Positions 7,126 through 22,616 of a stretch of DNA of 34,765 nt are shown here, piece by piece. The notes under the pieces were generated by a model, which saw only the letters and a list, made by a program, of their open reading frames with translations, had not been told where the DNA came from and ran no database searches. The first letter of the stretch is position 1. The number at the start of each line of letters is the position of its first letter. The translations under genes and the position numbers were made by a program. The DNA comes from Candidatus Daviesbacteria bacterium RIFCSPLOWO2_01_FULL_39_12 (GTDB lineage: Bacteria > Patescibacteriota > Microgenomatia > Daviesbacterales > UBA10151), in the NCBI GenBank assembly GCA_001776905.1, contig MFDM01000017.1, positions 1 through 34,765 of the forward strand. The letters run 5' to 3'.

Positions 7126-7395
7126 ATGGGGACAAGATCGAAAAAAGAGCGTTCATTCCATAAGGAATTACTACAACAGTTAATCACACTTTCTACCTCT
7201 GGTTTTGGACTGGTAGCAGCTTTGGCTTGGAATGAAGCCATCCAAAGTTTTGTTAAGGAATACATTCAAAGGTTTTATCCGGGTCAAGCAGGCGTAATCT
7301 CCAAATTCCTCTACGCCATCCTTATTACAGGCTTTGCAGTTTTAATTACCTATCAACTTTCCCGTTTAGCCTCCAGATGGGGAGTAAAAAAATGA
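7126..7395 (+). CDS. DUF5654-like small membrane protein, 89 aa
   Basis: Residues about 18-36 (TLSTSGFGLVAALAWNEAIQ) and a second hydrophobic helix near residues 62-80 match the two-helix pattern I associate with DUF5654 proteins of archaea and CPR bacteria; function unknown. I chose the ATG at 7126 over a TTG at 7090. A TATGAT box (7114-7119) ends six bases before this ATG, implying a leaderless mRNA, and a TATAAT (7082-7087) overlaps the TTG. The stop codon overlaps the next gene by four bases (ATGA), so it is coupled to the KGF-anchored protein downstream. The N-terminus is basic, as expected for a cytoplasmic N-terminal tail. Confidence 0.7.
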   Translation: MGTRSKKERSFHKELLQQLITLSTSGFGLVAALAWNEAIQSFVKEYIQRFYPGQAGVISKFLYAILITGFAVLITYQLSRLASRWGVKK

Positions 7396-8303
7396 ATCAA
7401 AAAGGATTTACCCCAATTTTAATAGTAATTATTTTAGCTGCAGTTTTGGTGGGTGGATATTTGGTTTATCAAAACCAACCCAGACCTACTTCTTCTCCCC
7501 AACCCTTCGACTTCATTCAGGGCAAGCCCACCACTCAACCTTCCCCCAGTCCATCCCCAACGATATCTCTTTCTACAAATAAATCCCCTACTCCTAAACC
7601 GAAGAGTTCAGCATCATCTCCCACTCCTTCTCCCACTCCTTTTGGGGCAAATGACCCTATAACTGAGAAGGCAGCATGTGGCGAAGTTCCCCCATCTAAT
7701 TCTCCAGCTTTTGGAGGAACCCCTTTAAGGGTATCCTTTTCCCCTAGTGGTAGCGTAAATTATACATACGGCACAATGGAAGGCTATCAATGGGATTTTG
7801 ACAGTAATGGTGTTTGGGATACAGGTGTTGTTCAAAGCAACGACTCCTACTACATTTATACAAAACCGGGAACTTATACCGCCACCTATAGAGTAAGAAC
7901 AAGTCAAAACACCTGGTCAAAAAATTGTATATACCCGTATAAAATAACAATTAGTGAGTCCTCTTCCGAAGGAATTAGCGTGGATAAAAACGAGTTTGAA
8001 ATAACAGTTAAGAAATCTGATTATCCAGGTAAAAGTTTTAATACATTTGATGCTTTTAAGGTTAGCACACAAGGAAACACATTTGTGAGTATAAATGCAG
8101 TAAAACAATACTCAGGAGGATTTATATACGATCAAGCTGGAGCTAATTTAAATGCTGGTCAATCATTTCAATTTCATTTAACTGTGGAATTTAATAATCC
8201 TCCGGGTGAATATCTGAATGAGGTTAAAATAATTTATACAAAAAACGGTAATGAAACTGTTGAAGGACCAACTGTCAAATATAAAATAATTCTTAAGGAA
8301 TAA
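7392..8303 (+). CDS. KGF-anchored surface protein with PKD-like domain
   Basis: 303 residues from the ATG at 7392 (GGGGAG lies upstream). Residues 1-27 (QKGFTPILIVIILAAVLVGG) form a prepilin-like membrane anchor: Lys-Gly-Phe-Thr before a hydrophobic helix, though the Glu5 of true pilins is absent. A Pro/Ser/Thr-rich spacer (about 28-85) leads to a PKD-like beta-sandwich (about 105-190; YQWDFDSNGVWD and KPGTYTATYRV). A second beta-rich domain reaches the C-terminus. This suggests a cell-surface adhesin-like protein (inference). One of four paralogous anchors in the window. Relative to the paralog at 8991 the spacer has an in-frame insert, FDFIQGKP, encoded by a palindromic element. The last codons abut a scar of the recF 3' end. 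Confidence 0.7.
   Translation: MNQKGFTPILIVIILAAVLVGGYLVYQNQPRPTSSPQPFDFIQGKPTTQPSPSPSPTISLSTNKSPTPKPKSSASSPTPSPTPFGANDPITEKAACGEVPPSNSPAFGGTPLRVSFSPSGSVNYTYGTMEGYQWDFDSNGVWDTGVVQSNDSYYIYTKPGTYTATYRVRTSQNTWSKNCIYPYKITISESSSEGISVDKNEFEITVKKSDYPGKSFNTFDAFKVSTQGNTFVSINAVKQYSGGFIYDQAGANLNAGQSFQFHLTVEFNNPPGEYLNEVKIIYTKNGNETVEGPTVKYKIILKE
7503..7529. repeat. Palindromic element inserted in frame in the anchored-protein gene
   Basis: CCCTTCGACTTC..TCAGGG resembles the intergenic element at 6965. The paralogous gene at 8991 joins SPQP directly to MTQPSPSP, while here SPQP and TTQPSPSP are separated by FDFIQGKP, which fits a clean in-frame insertion. Confidence 0.65.
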
Positions 8304-8348: not shown

Positions 8349-8765
8349 TTACTTTTTAACTGGGGTAATCTCAACTATTCCGTGATCTTTCTCGAATCTA
8401 ATTCTGAAAGCATCAAAAAAGCCATCTTGTCCGAGTATTACAGCCACTCCGGGACTGTTAACAAAACCTACCGTAACTGTAATTTCTTCATTCATTCCAA
8501 TTATCTGTAATTTTACCTTCTGTAAATTTGCTTTCAGGGATCCTCCTTCAATACCAGCAAAATTCTCATTATTTTCCTCATTTAAATCTAAACCAATATC
8601 TTTTGCTATTTTATTGTTAAACAAACAGCGGTCAGCTCCCGAATCTATCAATCCATAACCCTCCCAAAATCTTTTGGGGCCAATTATTCTGATGGGAATA
8701 TAAGGACGTGCAATCCATTTTAGATTAGGATTATATGAAGGTAATTTAGAATAGGGAAACTTCAT
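8349..8765 (-). CDS. Retropepsin-like aspartic protease, 138 aa (copy A)
   Basis: Residues 38-44 read GLIDSGA, the Asp-Ser-Gly-Ala catalytic motif of aspartic proteases. A flap-containing middle region and an ILGQDGFF segment near residue 110 correspond to the second conserved Ile-Leu-Gly motif of retropepsins. With a single catalytic Asp per chain and about 138 residues, it must dimerise to be active, as retroviral protease does (family knowledge). No signal peptide or TM, so presumably cytoplasmic. Its start overlaps the stop of the DUF5678-like gene by four bases (ATGA). A paralogous pair with the same gene order lies at 21996-22603, so the two genes form a mobile or duplicated module. Target unknown. 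Confidence 0.75.
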   Translation of the reverse strand: MKFPYSKLPSYNPNLKWIARPYIPIRIIGPKRFWEGYGLIDSGADRCLFNNKIAKDIGLDLNEENNENFAGIEGGSLKANLQKVKLQIIGMNEEITVTVGFVNSPGVAVILGQDGFFDAFRIRFEKDHGIVEITPVKK

Positions 8766-8959
8766 CTAGTAGATGGCACATATGAAACATCAAAAGGTGG
8801 CACTTTTATAAAAAGGAATCTTTTTTTAGTTTTTTCTGCCTGTTTTCTTGCCTGCTCTAAAGTATCACCTACCCCTAAAACCTTTTTATTATCCTCAGAT
8901 AAAGCCACCCACTTATCCTCATAAGGTAACAATATTTTAGATAAATCAATTGGTTTCAT
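8762..8959 (-). CDS. DUF5678-like small protein, 65 aa (copy A)
   Basis: Residues about 10-60 follow the pattern Y-x-x-K-W-V-A-L-S..V-L-G-x-G-x-T-L-E-x-A..K-V-P, which I associate with DUF5678. The fold is probably a small alpha/beta unit; function unknown. I chose the ATG at 8959, 13 codons inside the longest frame, because an extended -10 (TGG-TATAAT, 8966-8974) lies six bases upstream and overlaps the longer frame's start. Translationally coupled to the retropepsin-like protease by an ATGA overlap. The small-protein-plus-protease layout resembles a toxin-antitoxin or protease-substrate pair, but nothing in the sequence proves that. Confidence 0.65.
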   Translation of the reverse strand: MKPIDLSKILLPYEDKWVALSEDNKKVLGVGDTLEQARKQAEKTKKRFLFIKVPPFDVSYVPSTR

Positions 8960-8965
8960 GTTGTT

Positions 8966-8983
8966 ATTATACCATGCTATACT
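8966..8983. promoter_or_regulatory. Overlapping divergent leaderless promoters
   Basis: Minus strand: TGG-TATAAT (8966-8974), then six bases to the ATG at 8959. Plus strand: TGC-TATACT (8975-8983), then seven bases to the ATG at 8991. The two extended -10 elements abut back to back around CATG at 8973-8976, so polymerase can probably occupy only one at a time. Confidence 0.65.
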
Positions 8984-8990
8984 AAATTTA

Positions 8991-9674
8991 ATGTCCACTT
9001 CAAAAAGTTTCAGTGTAAACCAAAAAGGCTTTGCTCCAATATTAATAATTATTTTAATAGCTGCTTTAGCAATTGGTGGATATTTGGTTTACTCCGATAA
9101 AATCGGAGTTTACCAAAACCAACCTAAACCTATTCCTTCTCCTCAACCAATGACTCAACCTTCTCCCAGTCCAGCTACTATCTATGAATCCACAAATTCT
9201 GCAGAAACTGCCAACTGGAAAACATATACACACTATGAACTTGGTTATACTGTTAAATATCCTGAAACTTGGTTATTTGATGAACCAAACTACCAACTAA
9301 CCTATTCAGAATTTACAATTAAAACTCCGGATCTAAAACGCGAAGGTGATTCTTATTACAGTATCGTAAAAGGATCGCAAATTTCTATCTCTGTAGGTAA
9401 ATACGCAACAAAGCTTAATTCAATAGATGATTACTTTGATAAAAATAAGTTTATGCAACAGATAACGGCAAATAGAAAACATATTATAATTGATGGACAA
9501 CCAGCTATAAGATTTGATCAAGCTTATGAAGGAATAAATAGTACTAACATTATTTTTCTTTATAATGGTTTGCTTTACACTATTGGTATTCATTTCCCCA
9601 TAACTGATAACTCAAGAACTACCAATTTAGATGTATATGAAAAACTAGTAAATTCATTTAGGCTGGCTAAATGA
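8991..9674 (+). CDS. KGF-anchored surface protein, 227 aa
   Basis: Start taken as the ATG at 8991, seven bases after an extended -10 (TATACT), with the bases between identical to those before the paralog at 10409. Residues about 9-34 (NQKGFAPILIIILIAALAIG) form the prepilin-like anchor. A Pro/Ser-rich spacer follows, then a globular region beginning NWKTYTHYELGYTVKYPETW near residue 75. This W-K-T-Y..Y-x-x-K-Y-P pattern recurs in the paralogs at 10409 and 21155 and is typical of secreted CPR proteins of unknown function. No cysteine is evident. Divergent from the DUF5678/retropepsin pair and sharing its promoter region. The stop codon opens a degraded recF-tail scar. Confidence 0.7.
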   Translation: MSTSKSFSVNQKGFAPILIIILIAALAIGGYLVYSDKIGVYQNQPKPIPSPQPMTQPSPSPATIYESTNSAETANWKTYTHYELGYTVKYPETWLFDEPNYQLTYSEFTIKTPDLKREGDSYYSIVKGSQISISVGKYATKLNSIDDYFDKNKFMQQITANRKHIIIDGQPAIRFDQAYEGINSTNIIFLYNGLLYTIGIHFPITDNSRTTNLDVYEKLVNSFRLAK

Positions 9675-9830: not shown

Positions 9831-9850
9831 TTAATGGTATAATATTATTT

Positions 9851-10162
9851 ATGGATATACAAATTCCCTTAACTATAAAGTTAACAGAAGATAAACAGTC
9901 CAAATCTGCTCCTTGGGTAGCTTACACTCCGGAATTGGATGTAGCCTCCTGCGGTCCAAGCCCGGGAAAAGCCAAGAAAAATCTTATGGAAGCAGTGGAA
10001 ATTATCCTAAAAGGGGCAGCTGATGATGGTAACTTAAAAGATTTATTACTGGAGACTGGTTTTGAAATTAACGCTTCAAGGCTGACTCCTCCTAAAGTTA
10101 GTCTGGATAAATTTACTTTTAATCTTAATCCAGATCTTACCCGCCAGATATGGCCCGCATAA
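9851..10162 (+). CDS. hicB: HicB-like antitoxin
   Basis: 103 residues from the ATG at 9851, chosen because an extended -10 (TGG-TATAAT, 9835-9843) ends seven bases upstream and overlaps a longer frame. Residues about 20-55 (WVAYTPELDVASCGPSPGKA followed by an amphipathic helix) show the partly degraded RNase-H-like HicB fold: a strand, the Pro-Glu-Leu turn, a Gly-x-Ser/Thr helix start and Ala-x-x-Asn-Leu. In HicAB systems HicB binds and neutralises the HicA mRNA interferase and often represses its own promoter. The tail (about 80-103) probably contacts the toxin or DNA. The gene overlaps hicA by 13 bases, antitoxin first. Confidence 0.7.
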   Translation: MDIQIPLTIKLTEDKQSKSAPWVAYTPELDVASCGPSPGKAKKNLMEAVEIILKGAADDGNLKDLLLETGFEINASRLTPPKVSLDKFTFNLNPDLTRQIWPA

Positions 10163-10380
10163 CACCAATCCATTGGCGAAAACTTTTAAAAATTTTCCAG
10201 GCTGAAGCCTGCATATTAGTTGGCCAAACAGGAGATCATCTGGAACTTAAGAAAGCAGGCGCCAAGAGAAGAATTGTTATCCCAAAATATAGAGACATCC
10301 CAGTTTTTATCATTGAAAATAATTTGAAAACTGCCGGAATCTCCAGAAAAAGATACTTTGAACTTCAACAAAAAGTTTAA
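10150..10380 (+). CDS. hicA: HicA-like toxin (double-stranded-RNA-binding-fold mRNA interferase)
   Basis: 76 residues. The pattern W-x-K-L-L-K-I-F..C-I-L-V-G-Q-T-G-D-H..R-R-I-V-I-P-K-Y..A-G-I-S-R-K-R-Y-F fits HicA. His30 of the Gly-Asp-His segment would be the catalytic histidine (usually Gly-Ser-His). It starts inside the 3' end of the HicB-like gene, as expected for a coupled pair, though HicB-first order is the less common arrangement. The pair sits between recF scar 3 and an anchored-protein gene, part of the accessory array. Activity cannot be judged from sequence alone. Confidence 0.7.
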   Translation: MARITPIHWRKLLKIFQAEACILVGQTGDHLELKKAGAKRRIVIPKYRDIPVFIIENNLKTAGISRKRYFELQQKV

Positions 10381-10408: not shown

Positions 10409-11083
10409 ATGAACCAAAAAGGATTAATCCCAATATTAATCGTTTTAATCATTGCTGCCTTAGTTGGTGGATATTTGATTTATCAAAAACAAACTAAATC
10501 TACATCTACGCCTTCGTCTCAACAAACCATTCAAATATCTCCTAGTCCAGTTGATTCCACTGCTAATTGGAAAACATATACGAATACAAAATATAATTTC
10601 CAATTGAAATACCCTCTAGATTGGAATGTAGAATCAATTCCATCTATAAACTCACCAAATAATGAACTAGGTGAATCTGATTATTTAAGATTTTATAATG
10701 AGGCTAAAAATTTGGAAAATAAAAAATTTGTGGAAGAATGTACCAAAAATCCTACGCTCACTAAATGTGGTACAGAAAGATATGCAAATGGTATTTTTGT
10801 TAATATTCATGAAAATAAGGATAAGACAAATTTTGAAACTTATTTTCAAAAAGATCTTGCTAAAAATCTTACTATTACTGGAGATATTAATGAAATTATT
10901 AGTAAATCCAAAAAAGATCAAATTGGATCTCTTAATATTATAAAGGGGAACAAGGTTGACGTTACTGGATGGCCTTATTATTACTTTCAGAACCCTTCTG
11001 GTAATATTGCGTTTATTATAGACGGAAGTGAATCAGAAAAAACTGTATATCAAATCCTTTCCACCTTTAAATCCCTGCCGTAA
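10409..11083 (+). CDS. KGF-anchored surface protein, 224 aa
   Basis: Residues 1-25 (NQKGLIPILIVLIIAALVGG) are the prepilin-like anchor; here Phe is replaced by Leu after Lys-Gly. A Ser/Thr/Gln/Pro spacer follows, then the NWKTYTNTKYNFQLKYPLDW motif near residue 50. Two cysteines (about residues 110 and 118, CTKNPTLTKC) could form a disulfide outside the cell. The start follows an extended -10 (TGG-TATACT, 10393-10401) by seven bases, the same promoter cassette as the paralog at 8991. The gene converges with recF and overlaps its last 17 bases. This junction appears to be the ancestral version of those repeated as scars upstream. Confidence 0.7.
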   Translation: MNQKGLIPILIVLIIAALVGGYLIYQKQTKSTSTPSSQQTIQISPSPVDSTANWKTYTNTKYNFQLKYPLDWNVESIPSINSPNNELGESDYLRFYNEAKNLENKKFVEECTKNPTLTKCGTERYANGIFVNIHENKDKTNFETYFQKDLAKNLTITGDINEIISKSKKDQIGSLNIIKGNKVDVTGWPYYYFQNPSGNIAFIIDGSESEKTVYQILSTFKSLP

Positions 11084-13557: not shown

Positions 13558-14160
13558 ATGGCTGAATTTATTAATAAACCTCCTCCTGAAGAGGCTACTC
13601 ATGGGCTTACCGGAGAGGAAAAATATATATCAGTACTGATTGCCAGATTACCTGCTTTCTATTCTATGGCAGAGGGTAAGTCACCGCTGGAAAGCACTAA
13701 TTTGCTGAATGGTTGTTTTAAAAAAGTAGTACCACCTATCTTAAGTCACAAGGGCAGAGTTGACCAATATGTAGTTTCTGTAGTCCCCGCTGTTGTGGCC
13801 AGATTTGGTGCTCCAATACCAATAGTAGAACGCAGAATTGTTGAGGCTGTAGCCGCTGCGCTGGAAATCGGGCAGATCATGAAAGAGGCAAGTCTACCTG
13901 TTACTCTGACCGTGAACAGAGGTCTGGCTTATGTAGGTAATATCGGCACCGAAGACAGAATACAATATACAATTGTAGGTCCAATGGTTAATGAGGCGTT
14001 TAGTATGTCTGCCAGGCAAAAACCTGATACCATTATTGTCATGGGCCGGAAAATTGAAGAAGATACGGAAGTCTTAAGTCTGATACAAAAAAGTGCTCTT
14101 GCTATAAATTTGAGGCCGTTGTGGGATGAGCCTGGGCCTGCTTATCAATTAACTATTTAA
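13558..14160 (+). CDS. Degenerate class III nucleotidyl-cyclase-fold protein (predicted inactive)
   Basis: 200 residues. Residues about 22-160 align with the cyclase homology domain: YISVLIARLPAF (normally VLFADLVGF), LLNGCFKKVVPPILSHKGRV, VDQYVVSVVPAV (normally VDKFIGDAVMAV), FGAPIP and VGNIGTEDRIQYTIVGPMVN (normally GNIGSEDRxDYTVIGDxVN). Both metal-binding Asp positions are replaced (Arg30 and Ser74), and the Asp of the Ile-Gly-Asp turn is Pro142. Asn145 remains, but the usual downstream Arg is not evident. The fold signature is strong, so cyclic-nucleotide synthesis is unlikely and a regulatory or scaffold role is inferred. A strong promoter (13519-13547) drives it. It converges with mutM, overlapping by four bases. 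No TM segment or sensor domain is attached. Confidence 0.75.
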   Translation: MAEFINKPPPEEATHGLTGEEKYISVLIARLPAFYSMAEGKSPLESTNLLNGCFKKVVPPILSHKGRVDQYVVSVVPAVVARFGAPIPIVERRIVEAVAAALEIGQIMKEASLPVTLTVNRGLAYVGNIGTEDRIQYTIVGPMVNEAFSMSARQKPDTIIVMGRKIEEDTEVLSLIQKSALAINLRPLWDEPGPAYQLTI

Positions 14161-21154: not shown

Positions 21155-21982
21155 CTATTTTTTGATACATTTTCCACCTGCATCTGGATAATCTCCATCT
21201 AACTTACATCTATAACCTTCTGGACATTGATTTTCTGGCAAATTAGCCCCAATCCCTCCACAAAACCTACCTTCAGGATTTGTTGTATCTAAAAATTTAA
21301 AAGTAGAAAGCATTTGGTCAGTAGTTAATTCATAATAACCTTCTAATTGATTACCCTCATCATCCATACATTTTGTATTAATTATTTCTATTAAATAACC
21401 AGAATTATTTTTAGGTATTAACAATGACTCACTATTACATTTAGAATCTCCACTTTTGTATAAATATGCTTCTACTAAACTTTCTATTTTTTGTGGAGCA
21501 AATTCACTGACTTCCTTTGTTTTATCATGAACCCACTTTTTATTAGTAGAATCATAAATAAAAATAAATCCTCCAGAATTATCTATCAATTTATATTTAT
21601 TTAACTGATAAACATTGACTGTGACTATATTTGCCTTATTAATATGGAAGCTCTCTGCTGTTAAAGGGGTTACATCACCTTTAGGAGTATTAAATGTATT
21701 TTGGACAAATACATTTGGATATTTAAACTCAAATCCATATTCTTTATTTGTATATGTTTTCCAATTTGATGTTTCATCAGAAACTTGGGGACAGGCTGCA
21801 AATTCACAGTTTGGTCCCATTCTTCCAACAACTGATCCATCAGGACAAATTTTAGCATCAGCTGTACAGGCAATTTGCTTTGGCTGATTTAAATTTATTT
21901 TTCCAGAATATACTAAATATCCTCCAATTGCTGCGGCTATTATTAGAACTATTAATATAGGAGCAAATCCTTTGTAGTTCAC
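21155..21982 (-). CDS. KGF-anchored cysteine-rich surface protein, 275 aa
   Basis: GTG start at 21982 with a TATACC box (21990-21995) seven bases upstream; the interval resembles the promoter cassette of the paralogs at 8991 and 10409. Residues about 3-23 (YKGFAPILIVLIIAAAIGGY) form the anchor. Residues about 37-66 hold a Cys-rich CPDGSVVGRMGPNCEFAACP segment (four Cys). Then comes the NWKTYTNKEYGFEFKYPNVF motif shared with the paralogs. The C-terminus has a second Cys-rich module (FCGGIGANLPENQCPEGYRC..GGKC). Paired cysteines imply extracytoplasmic disulfides. Function unknown; protease-inhibitor-like or adhesive roles are possible. It lies directly after a retropepsin/DUF5678 pair on the same strand. 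Confidence 0.7.
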   Translation of the reverse strand: MNYKGFAPILIVLIIAAAIGGYLVYSGKINLNQPKQIACTADAKICPDGSVVGRMGPNCEFAACPQVSDETSNWKTYTNKEYGFEFKYPNVFVQNTFNTPKGDVTPLTAESFHINKANIVTVNVYQLNKYKLIDNSGGFIFIYDSTNKKWVHDKTKEVSEFAPQKIESLVEAYLYKSGDSKCNSESLLIPKNNSGYLIEIINTKCMDDEGNQLEGYYELTTDQMLSTFKFLDTTNPEGRFCGGIGANLPENQCPEGYRCKLDGDYPDAGGKCIKK

Positions 21983-21995
21983 AAGTTTTGGTATA

Positions 21996-22406
21996 CTACT
22001 TTTCTAGTAATCTAATATCTAAATTCCATTTATATCTTTCAAAAGTAATCCTTGCTTTAGAAAAGAAATCTTCTTGTCCTAAAATACATGGGAAGGCTTT
22101 ACTCAACTGATTACTAAATTGGACTGGAATATTTAAGTGGTGTCCTCCTAATTCAATAGTTATCTCAGAAGGATAACATAAAAAGGGTGTACCATTTATC
22201 CCAAATGACGTATGTGGCTTAACTCCACTAAGATCAATATCCAGCAGTTTTGCAATCTCCATAGTTAGATATGAATAATCAGCTCCTGAATCAATTAAAC
22301 TAAGAATCGGAAGAGTAGATTTATCTTTATGAATAAATTTTATTGGTACTAGAGGTCTTTTTGTATCTTTAGGAACTCCAGGAAGAGTAGTATATGGAAA
22401 ATTCAT
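21996..22406 (-). CDS. Retropepsin-like aspartic protease, 136 aa (copy B)
   Basis: LSLIDSGADYSYL places the catalytic Asp at residue 39, and CILGQEDFF near residue 115 is the second conserved retropepsin segment. It shares the M-x-F-P-Y-x-x-L-P start with copy A at 8349 and nearly the same length, so the two are paralogs, though clearly diverged. The ATG shares one base with the stop of the DUF5678-like gene (TAATG), indicating coupling. No export signal. The active enzyme would be a homodimer. The natural substrate is unknown; the partner protein or the adjacent anchored protein are candidates (inference). Confidence 0.75.
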   Translation of the reverse strand: MNFPYTTLPGVPKDTKRPLVPIKFIHKDKSTLPILSLIDSGADYSYLTMEIAKLLDIDLSGVKPHTSFGINGTPFLCYPSEITIELGGHHLNIPVQFSNQLSKAFPCILGQEDFFSKARITFERYKWNLDIRLLEK

Positions 22407-22603
22407 TAAACGCTGGTAACAAAACCTCGGTAATTTTTAGAGGCAGGTATCAAGATAACATCATCTCGTTTTTGTTGCAAAACTTTCTGGGTAACCTCTT
22501 TTAACGTTTTTCCGGAAGCCACTACCTTTTTATAATCAGAGGTGATGGCTACCCATCCAGATGAGAAATTTTTCAAGATTTTAGATAAATTTATTGTCTG
22601 CAT
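22406..22603 (-). CDS. DUF5678-like small protein, 65 aa (copy B)
   Basis: Pattern S-x-G-W-V-A-I-T-x-D-x-K-K-V-V-A-S-G-K-T-L-K-E-V..I-L-I-P-A-S, the same layout as copy A at 8762 and the same length of 65 residues. First gene of module B, upstream of the protease. An extended -10 (TGA-TATAAT, 22611-22619) ends seven bases before the ATG, so a leaderless transcript is likely. The TGA in that element is the stop codon of the preceding membrane-protein gene. Function unknown. Confidence 0.65.
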   Translation of the reverse strand: MQTINLSKILKNFSSGWVAITSDYKKVVASGKTLKEVTQKVLQQKRDDVILIPASKNYRGFVTSV

Positions 22604-22616
22604 GGTAATTATTATA

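Follow-up and report, generated by a model that had tools for sequence, protein, structure and literature searches.

A two-gene cassette that joins a DUF5678-like gene to a gene for a retropepsin-like aspartic protease occurs in two diverged copies in the window (the whole 34,765-nucleotide stretch analysed, bases 1-34765 of the 43,741-base contig C17 in a 1.0-Mb genome of 34 contigs), and its recurrence in other genomes and phyla supports a conserved functional link between DUF5678 and proteases of the retropepsin fold. Gene order, mobility, location in a toxin-antitoxin hotspot and asymmetric gene loss fit best with a toxin-antitoxin-like or protease-inhibitor reading. In its specific form, DUF5678 would be the inhibitor or antitoxin and the retropepsin a dimeric enzyme of the cytosol, together forming a mobile and self-contained two-gene toxin-antitoxin-like cassette, a reading that we hold tentatively and credit with slightly less than an even chance. 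For the unannotated Pfam family DUF5678, this analysis identifies a specific partner and suggests a function that can be tested.

Two diverged copies of the cassette

Coordinates and translations of copies A and B (Table 1) agree with the preliminary description, in that each consists of a 65-residue gene followed by a DSGAD protease of 138 or 136 residues, the genes are joined by the ATGA and TAATG overlaps that it named, and both proteases begin with M-x-F-P-Y-x-x-L-P (MKFPYSKLP in A, MNFPYTTLP in B). In alignments, the two copies are 33% identical for the DUF5678 genes and 33% for the proteases. The DUF5678 profile PF18929 matches copy A with E 4.5e-8 and 33.2 bits, above its cut-off of 23.2, and copy B with E 2.2e-4 and 21.4 bits, below that cut-off, with the same core aligned and the gene in the same slot as in copy A. 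The genome harbors no further relative of the protease at E <= 10, and the only additional DUF5678 match is weak (E 0.05) and lies inside a 384-residue frame. Another small protein of the window matches a PADLOC cyclase model (Table 1).

Table 1. Features of the window discussed in the text
Feature	Position	Strand	Remarks
DUF5678-like gene, copy A	8762-8959	-	65 aa; first of pair; PF18929 match
Retropepsin-like aspartic protease, copy A	8349-8765	-	138 aa; 4-base ATGA overlap with DUF5678 gene
DSG catalytic motif, copy A, Asp41-Gly43	8637-8645	-	invariant columns in 20-row alignment
TATAAT box, copy A	8966-8971	-	6 nt ahead of DUF5678 start codon; putative near-leaderless promoter
DUF5678-like gene, copy B	22406-22603	-	65 aa; PF18929 just under cut-off
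Retropepsin-like aspartic protease, copy B	21996-22406	-	136 aa; one-base TAATG overlap with DUF5678 gene
DSG catalytic motif, copy B, Asp39-Gly41	22284-22292	-	from translation and alignment
TATAAT box, copy B	22611-22616	-	7 nt ahead of DUF5678 start codon
KGF-type gene, beside copy A	7377-8303	+	N-terminal KGF/KGL-x-PIL(I/V) membrane segment
KGF-type gene, beside copy A	8958-9674	+	same segment
KGF-type gene	10409-11083	+	same segment
KGF-type gene, beside copy B	21155-21982	-	same segment
HicA-like toxin gene	9848-10380	+	PF07927, 2.2e-8; between copy A and recF; small HicB-like gene in front has no Pfam match
Small protein	13558-14160	+	PADLOC PycC (Pycsar cyclase) match, 3.3e-8

A diverged protease family with a predicted retropepsin fold

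Residues D41, S42 and G43 are invariant in a 20-row protease alignment, which places the catalytic D[ST]G motif of clan AA in the family. DSG[AS] is present in 66 of the 67 intact proteases of the protease-seeded set (see below), and in the 67th the regular expression hit ESEA, judged to be a chance match upstream of the true motif. The window proteases match gag-asp_proteas and Asp_protease_2 with E 2.5e-4 to 7.5e-4, below the Pfam cut-offs, and score 18.2-22 bits against PF13975, PF13650 and PF00077 (cut-offs 20.7-28.2) without reaching the gathering score; these sub-cut-off matches include PF13975 for copy A (E 2.5e-4) and PF13650 for copy B (E 5.2e-4). These low scores indicate that, as judged from sequence, the window proteases are a diverged family. 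Among PDB sequences, the family profile matches Ddi1 and the FIV protease.

For the fold, the window proteases are represented by L145, a homologue modelled with the window rows in its alignment, in which DUF5678 and protease are joined in frame as one chain. Its AlphaFold2 model has pLDDT 91.2 and pTM 0.81, with a low-confidence segment joining the DUF5678 core to the protease, and the protease part has 69 structural matches in the PDB at E <= 1e-3. The top structural match of the protease domain is Rickettsia APRc (Z 11.7, 120 aligned residues, 2.9 A), and HIV and SIV proteases reach Z values of about 10. The retropepsin fold that the preliminary description had assumed is thus confirmed for the family by the predicted structure of a homologue. 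By eye, the window proteases show neither a signal peptide nor a transmembrane segment, and the retropepsin of the pair, presumably cytosolic, would be a homodimer, as is typical of the family.

Conservation of the pair in Patescibacteria and other phyla

A search of 379 Patescibacteria genomes yielded 49 DUF5678 matches in 38 genomes, and in 38 of the 49 the next ORF downstream encodes an intact D[ST]G protease. Five others are followed by a broken or remnant protease (L019, L032, L033, L036, L037), which in L019 and L037 consists of the first protease codons only, identified by eye, and six by none (L023, L027, L034, L044, L046, L052). The reverse search of the same genomes, using a profile from 20 DUF5678-linked proteases and a cut-off of E <= 1e-10, returned 53 protease matches, 50 of them with a DUF5678-like ORF directly upstream, a count biased towards finding pairs because the profile was drawn from DUF5678-linked proteases. 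The upstream partners comprise 36 Pfam DUF5678 matches and 14 diverged DUF5678-like ORFs, of which 12 are found at E <= 1e-4 by our own DUF5678 profile (three of these 12 being rows of the profile); the weakest two of the 50 are L094 (0.017) and L096 (assigned because it resembles L050). Across 473 ORFs, this profile gave nothing below 0.09 outside the upstream slot. The three proteases without DUF5678 (L088, L090, L095) all carry an N-terminal hydrophobic segment, probably a transmembrane segment. Given these neighbour counts, the pairing is not due to chance, and the coupling proposed from the window alone is conserved, the two families being neighbours elsewhere as well.

Among named genomes, a protease search recovered 74 loci spanning Patescibacteria, Chloroflexota, WOR-3, Cloacimonadota, Omnitrophota, Actinomycetota, Micrarchaeota, Nitrospira, and Acidobacteriaceae; together with one viral-collection contig these form the protease-seeded set of 75 loci, and a DUF5678-like ORF lies directly upstream in 74 of them, L170 being the exception. 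About ten of the 74 loci coincide with loci of the 49-match Patescibacteria set, so the two sets are not independent. Searches seeded with DUF5678 found a protease at 16 of 22 newly read loci in Micrarchaeota, at 19 of 26 in Omnitrophota (two more loci end at contig ends), and in Chloroflexota at 9 of 15 non-fused loci and then at one of seven further loci, the reading frame being doubtful in L336 and L338; the Chloroflexota counts cover part of 40 DUF5678 matches, from which the remaining long-ORF matches were left out. In 17 genomes that had been picked up via their proteases, a D[ST]G ORF lies downstream at 27 of 28 DUF5678 loci, four of these ORFs being fragments (L186, L189, L203, L204). 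Start codons were assigned by script and are in part uncertain. The pairing also recurs with other protease lineages, of DTG types, in other phyla, and partners in such different lineages suggest that DUF5678 tracks the protease class, not one clade. Distances among the DUF5678 proteins correlate with those among the proteases (r 0.69, 61 pairs), a value that none of 2000 permutations equalled, with 16 of the 75 loci excluded as broken, outside the length limits or of uncertain start.

Mobility and genomic context

The copy B site is empty in three relatives, where tm84 abuts alaS (L273, L275, L280), and a relative of copy A in genome G178, 60-62% identical, sits elsewhere, between ftsK and sua5 (L273). 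Copy A occupies the interval between recF and pyrB, which in the window also holds a HicA-like toxin gene and in relatives holds BrnT/CopG (G178), PBECR3 and DUF2283 (G649) or HicA/HicB (G657); a toxin-antitoxin-like pair is present in four of six such intervals (G178, G649, G652, G218, G657, and the window). In the protease tree, several named phyla (Levybacteria, Kerfeldbacteria) are scattered, and WOR-3 and Actinomycetota rows fall among Patescibacteria, with weak support in places. An exact TATAAT stands 4-8 nt before the DUF5678 start at 16 of 72 loci, including both window copies, against a mean of 0.89 in shuffles, and this excess suggests that many pairs are transcribed from a near-leaderless promoter of their own.

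No third gene recurs among the 119 nearest flanking ORFs of the protease-seeded loci (117 Pfam families, each present at most three times). A KGF-type gene does adjoin each window copy, as had been noted before, and the window has four such genes, three of whose proteins have PsbP_2-like matches of varying strength. The proposal built on this adjacency, that the protease processes the neighbouring KGF-anchored surface protein, is rejected as highly improbable because the neighbour is not conserved: a KGF motif scan of the flanks of the other loci examined found none that is credible (two motif matches were spurious by eye), and KGF-like genes hold the copy B site in the relatives L278 and L283, where the pair is absent. 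The lack of a visible signal peptide or transmembrane segment in the window proteases also speaks against it.

Searches of the plasmid collection with the DUF5678 gene, and of the phage collection and viral_contigs with protease A, returned no match. One pair (L177) lies at the end of a viral-collection contig, where its neighbours are a weak match to a phage tail protein and a gene resembling sigma factors, and is 95% identical to a Chloroflexota copy. Both window proteases weakly match the PADLOC model PDC-M52B (9.7e-5 and 2.5e-4), which itself represents a candidate system of unproven role. This match and the L177 copy with its tail-protein neighbour would suit an anti-phage abortive-infection module in which infection would dislodge DUF5678 and thereby unleash the protease. 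However, defence genes are neither clearly enriched nor recurrent in the flanks of the protease-seeded loci, PDC-M52A is absent from the ten other window proteins scanned, and the DUF5678 genes match no PADLOC model, which leaves such a module improbable.

The DUF5678 protein and its C-terminal tail

The AlphaFold2 model of copy A DUF5678 (58-row alignment, pLDDT 85.4) has an alpha-beta-beta-alpha-beta fold. Its sequence has no relative in the PDB that was judged credible, Foldseek returned nothing at E <= 1e-3, and second-look structural matches, mainly deaminases, have Z of 4 at most; these sequence and structure searches linked DUF5678 to no known inhibitor or antitoxin. The protein ends in a tail with the consensus [VAI]P-x(4)-[YF][VI][GL], in which the Y/F is kept in 51 of 58 rows and the following V/I in 52 of 57. 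The tail is conserved yet of low confidence in the structure models, suggesting that it binds something.

The same hydrophobic, low-confidence tail might instead mark DUF5678 as a substrate, whose [YF]-[VI] tail the protease would cut to free a product that signals or becomes active; aromatic and beta-branched residues, as found in the tail, suit the P1/P1' sites of retropepsins. However, tail length is variable and several groups stop right behind [YF]-[VI] (e.g. ...YIL), so that cleavage would release almost no product, and pseudo-substrate inhibition predicts identical tail conservation. We therefore consider it rather improbable that DUF5678 is a substrate.

In Chloroflexota, DUF5678 also forms the N-terminal domain of proteins of ~550 residues (L209, L210, L212, L214, L218, L219, six of the 21 loci displayed) that were named tRNA nucleotidyltransferase-like by eye from sequence. 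These fusions indicate that DUF5678 is a reusable domain, not solely a protease inhibitor, and advise caution against a purely inhibitory role. They suggest a binding or recruiting domain and, together with the highly regular coupling and the first position of the DUF5678 gene, are consistent with an adaptor or activator through which the protease receives its substrates, which might be ribosomal or bound to RNA; the pair would then be a conditional regulatory protease and not a toxin. Regulatory roles are also documented for RimB and RloA, two retropepsins of bacteria (PMC11957791, PMC12239564).

Asymmetric loss of the two genes

Within the 379 Patescibacteria genomes, DUF5678 lacks an intact protease in 11 of 49 cases, whereas the protease lacks DUF5678 in 3 of 53 (Fisher p 0.02); dropping L088, L090, and L095, an exclusion chosen after seeing them, changes the latter to 0/50 (p 0.0002). 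Beside an open DUF5678 frame, the protease has been lost through an in-frame TAG (L033/L121) or an insertion (L036/L129), is truncated (L032, L301, L303) or is interrupted by a transposase-like ORF (L337), and in two full-length proteases the active site is altered from DSG to DSE (L101) or DSC (L325); some frameshifts are possibly assembly errors of metagenome bins. Single-gene losses in the protease-seeded set number eight for the protease and two for DUF5678, a difference that is not significant after length correction (p 0.30).

Frequent retention of DUF5678 beside a lost or active-site-altered protease is odd for a mere helper, and the patchy, mobile distribution in a toxin-antitoxin hotspot is unlike that of a housekeeping regulator; an adaptor role is accordingly unlikely, though it retains a real share of the probability. 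Anatomy and population pattern fit better with an inhibitor or antitoxin than with an adaptor or a substrate.

Proposed function

As an inhibitor, DUF5678 would be made ahead of the protease, in many cases under a near-leaderless promoter of its own, with the gene overlap coupling it to the protease, which it would keep in check, perhaps via its conserved C-terminal tail. Loss, titration or degradation of DUF5678 would release the protease to cleave cellular or phage proteins, with an outcome like that of toxin-antitoxin or abortive-infection modules. The cassette may therefore represent a new, protease-based kind of toxin-antitoxin. A more detailed version proposes a new class, disseminated through transfer among Patescibacteria, Chloroflexota, Omnitrophota, and archaea, with a cytosolic retropepsin toxin and a DUF5678 antitoxin that inserts its [YF][VI][GL] tail into the cleft or dimer interface; in all these particulars it is possible but doubtful.

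Retroviruses and a small number of bacterial regulators are the main known sources of retropepsins. If the inhibitor or antitoxin reading is true, these enzymes would also serve uncultured bacteria and archaea as a mobile class of effectors, and DUF5678 would be a naturally occurring protein that inhibits an HIV-protease-like fold. To our knowledge, few natural protein inhibitors of the retropepsin fold have been described, so its mode of inhibition would be structurally interesting.

Comparison with known systems

A search of the open-access literature found no description of a DUF5678-retropepsin pair, one paper, with an unrelated title, that contains the term DUF5678, and none that joins a retropepsin or aspartyl protease to a toxin-antitoxin (subscription journals and preprints lay outside this scope). 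APRc of Rickettsia conorii (PDB 5c9f) shares the retropepsin fold, with 18% identity to the protease domain, and has been linked to modulation of rickettsial surface proteins and immune evasion; unlike for the window proteases, no DUF5678 partner is mentioned in the abstracts of these reports (PMC4140852, PMC8649778). RimB and RloA of Pseudomonas are likewise retropepsin-like and operon-encoded, but are described with an ATP-grasp protein, a cyclic-di-GMP phosphodiesterase or an inactive transglutaminase as partner in place of DUF5678, and RloA is secreted, unlike the proposed cytosolic window proteases (PMC11957791, PMC12239564). Short clan AA aspartic peptidases of ~120 residues (COG3577, COG5550) occur in bacteria and archaea, and the portion of that report available describes no partner gene for them (PMC2642776). 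Copy A scores only 16 bits against TIGR02281, whose cut-off is 58.

Pfam and NCBIfam contain no toxin or antitoxin family that matches the genes of the pair, and a known toxin-antitoxin or defence family for either gene was sought in Pfam, NCBIfam, and PADLOC without a convincing match. A parallel in organization is offered by type II toxin-antitoxin systems such as HicAB and BrnT/CopG, which, like the cassette, consist of two small overlapping genes, are accessory and mobile, and occupy the same hotspot; unlike in those systems, the putative toxin of the cassette is a protease.
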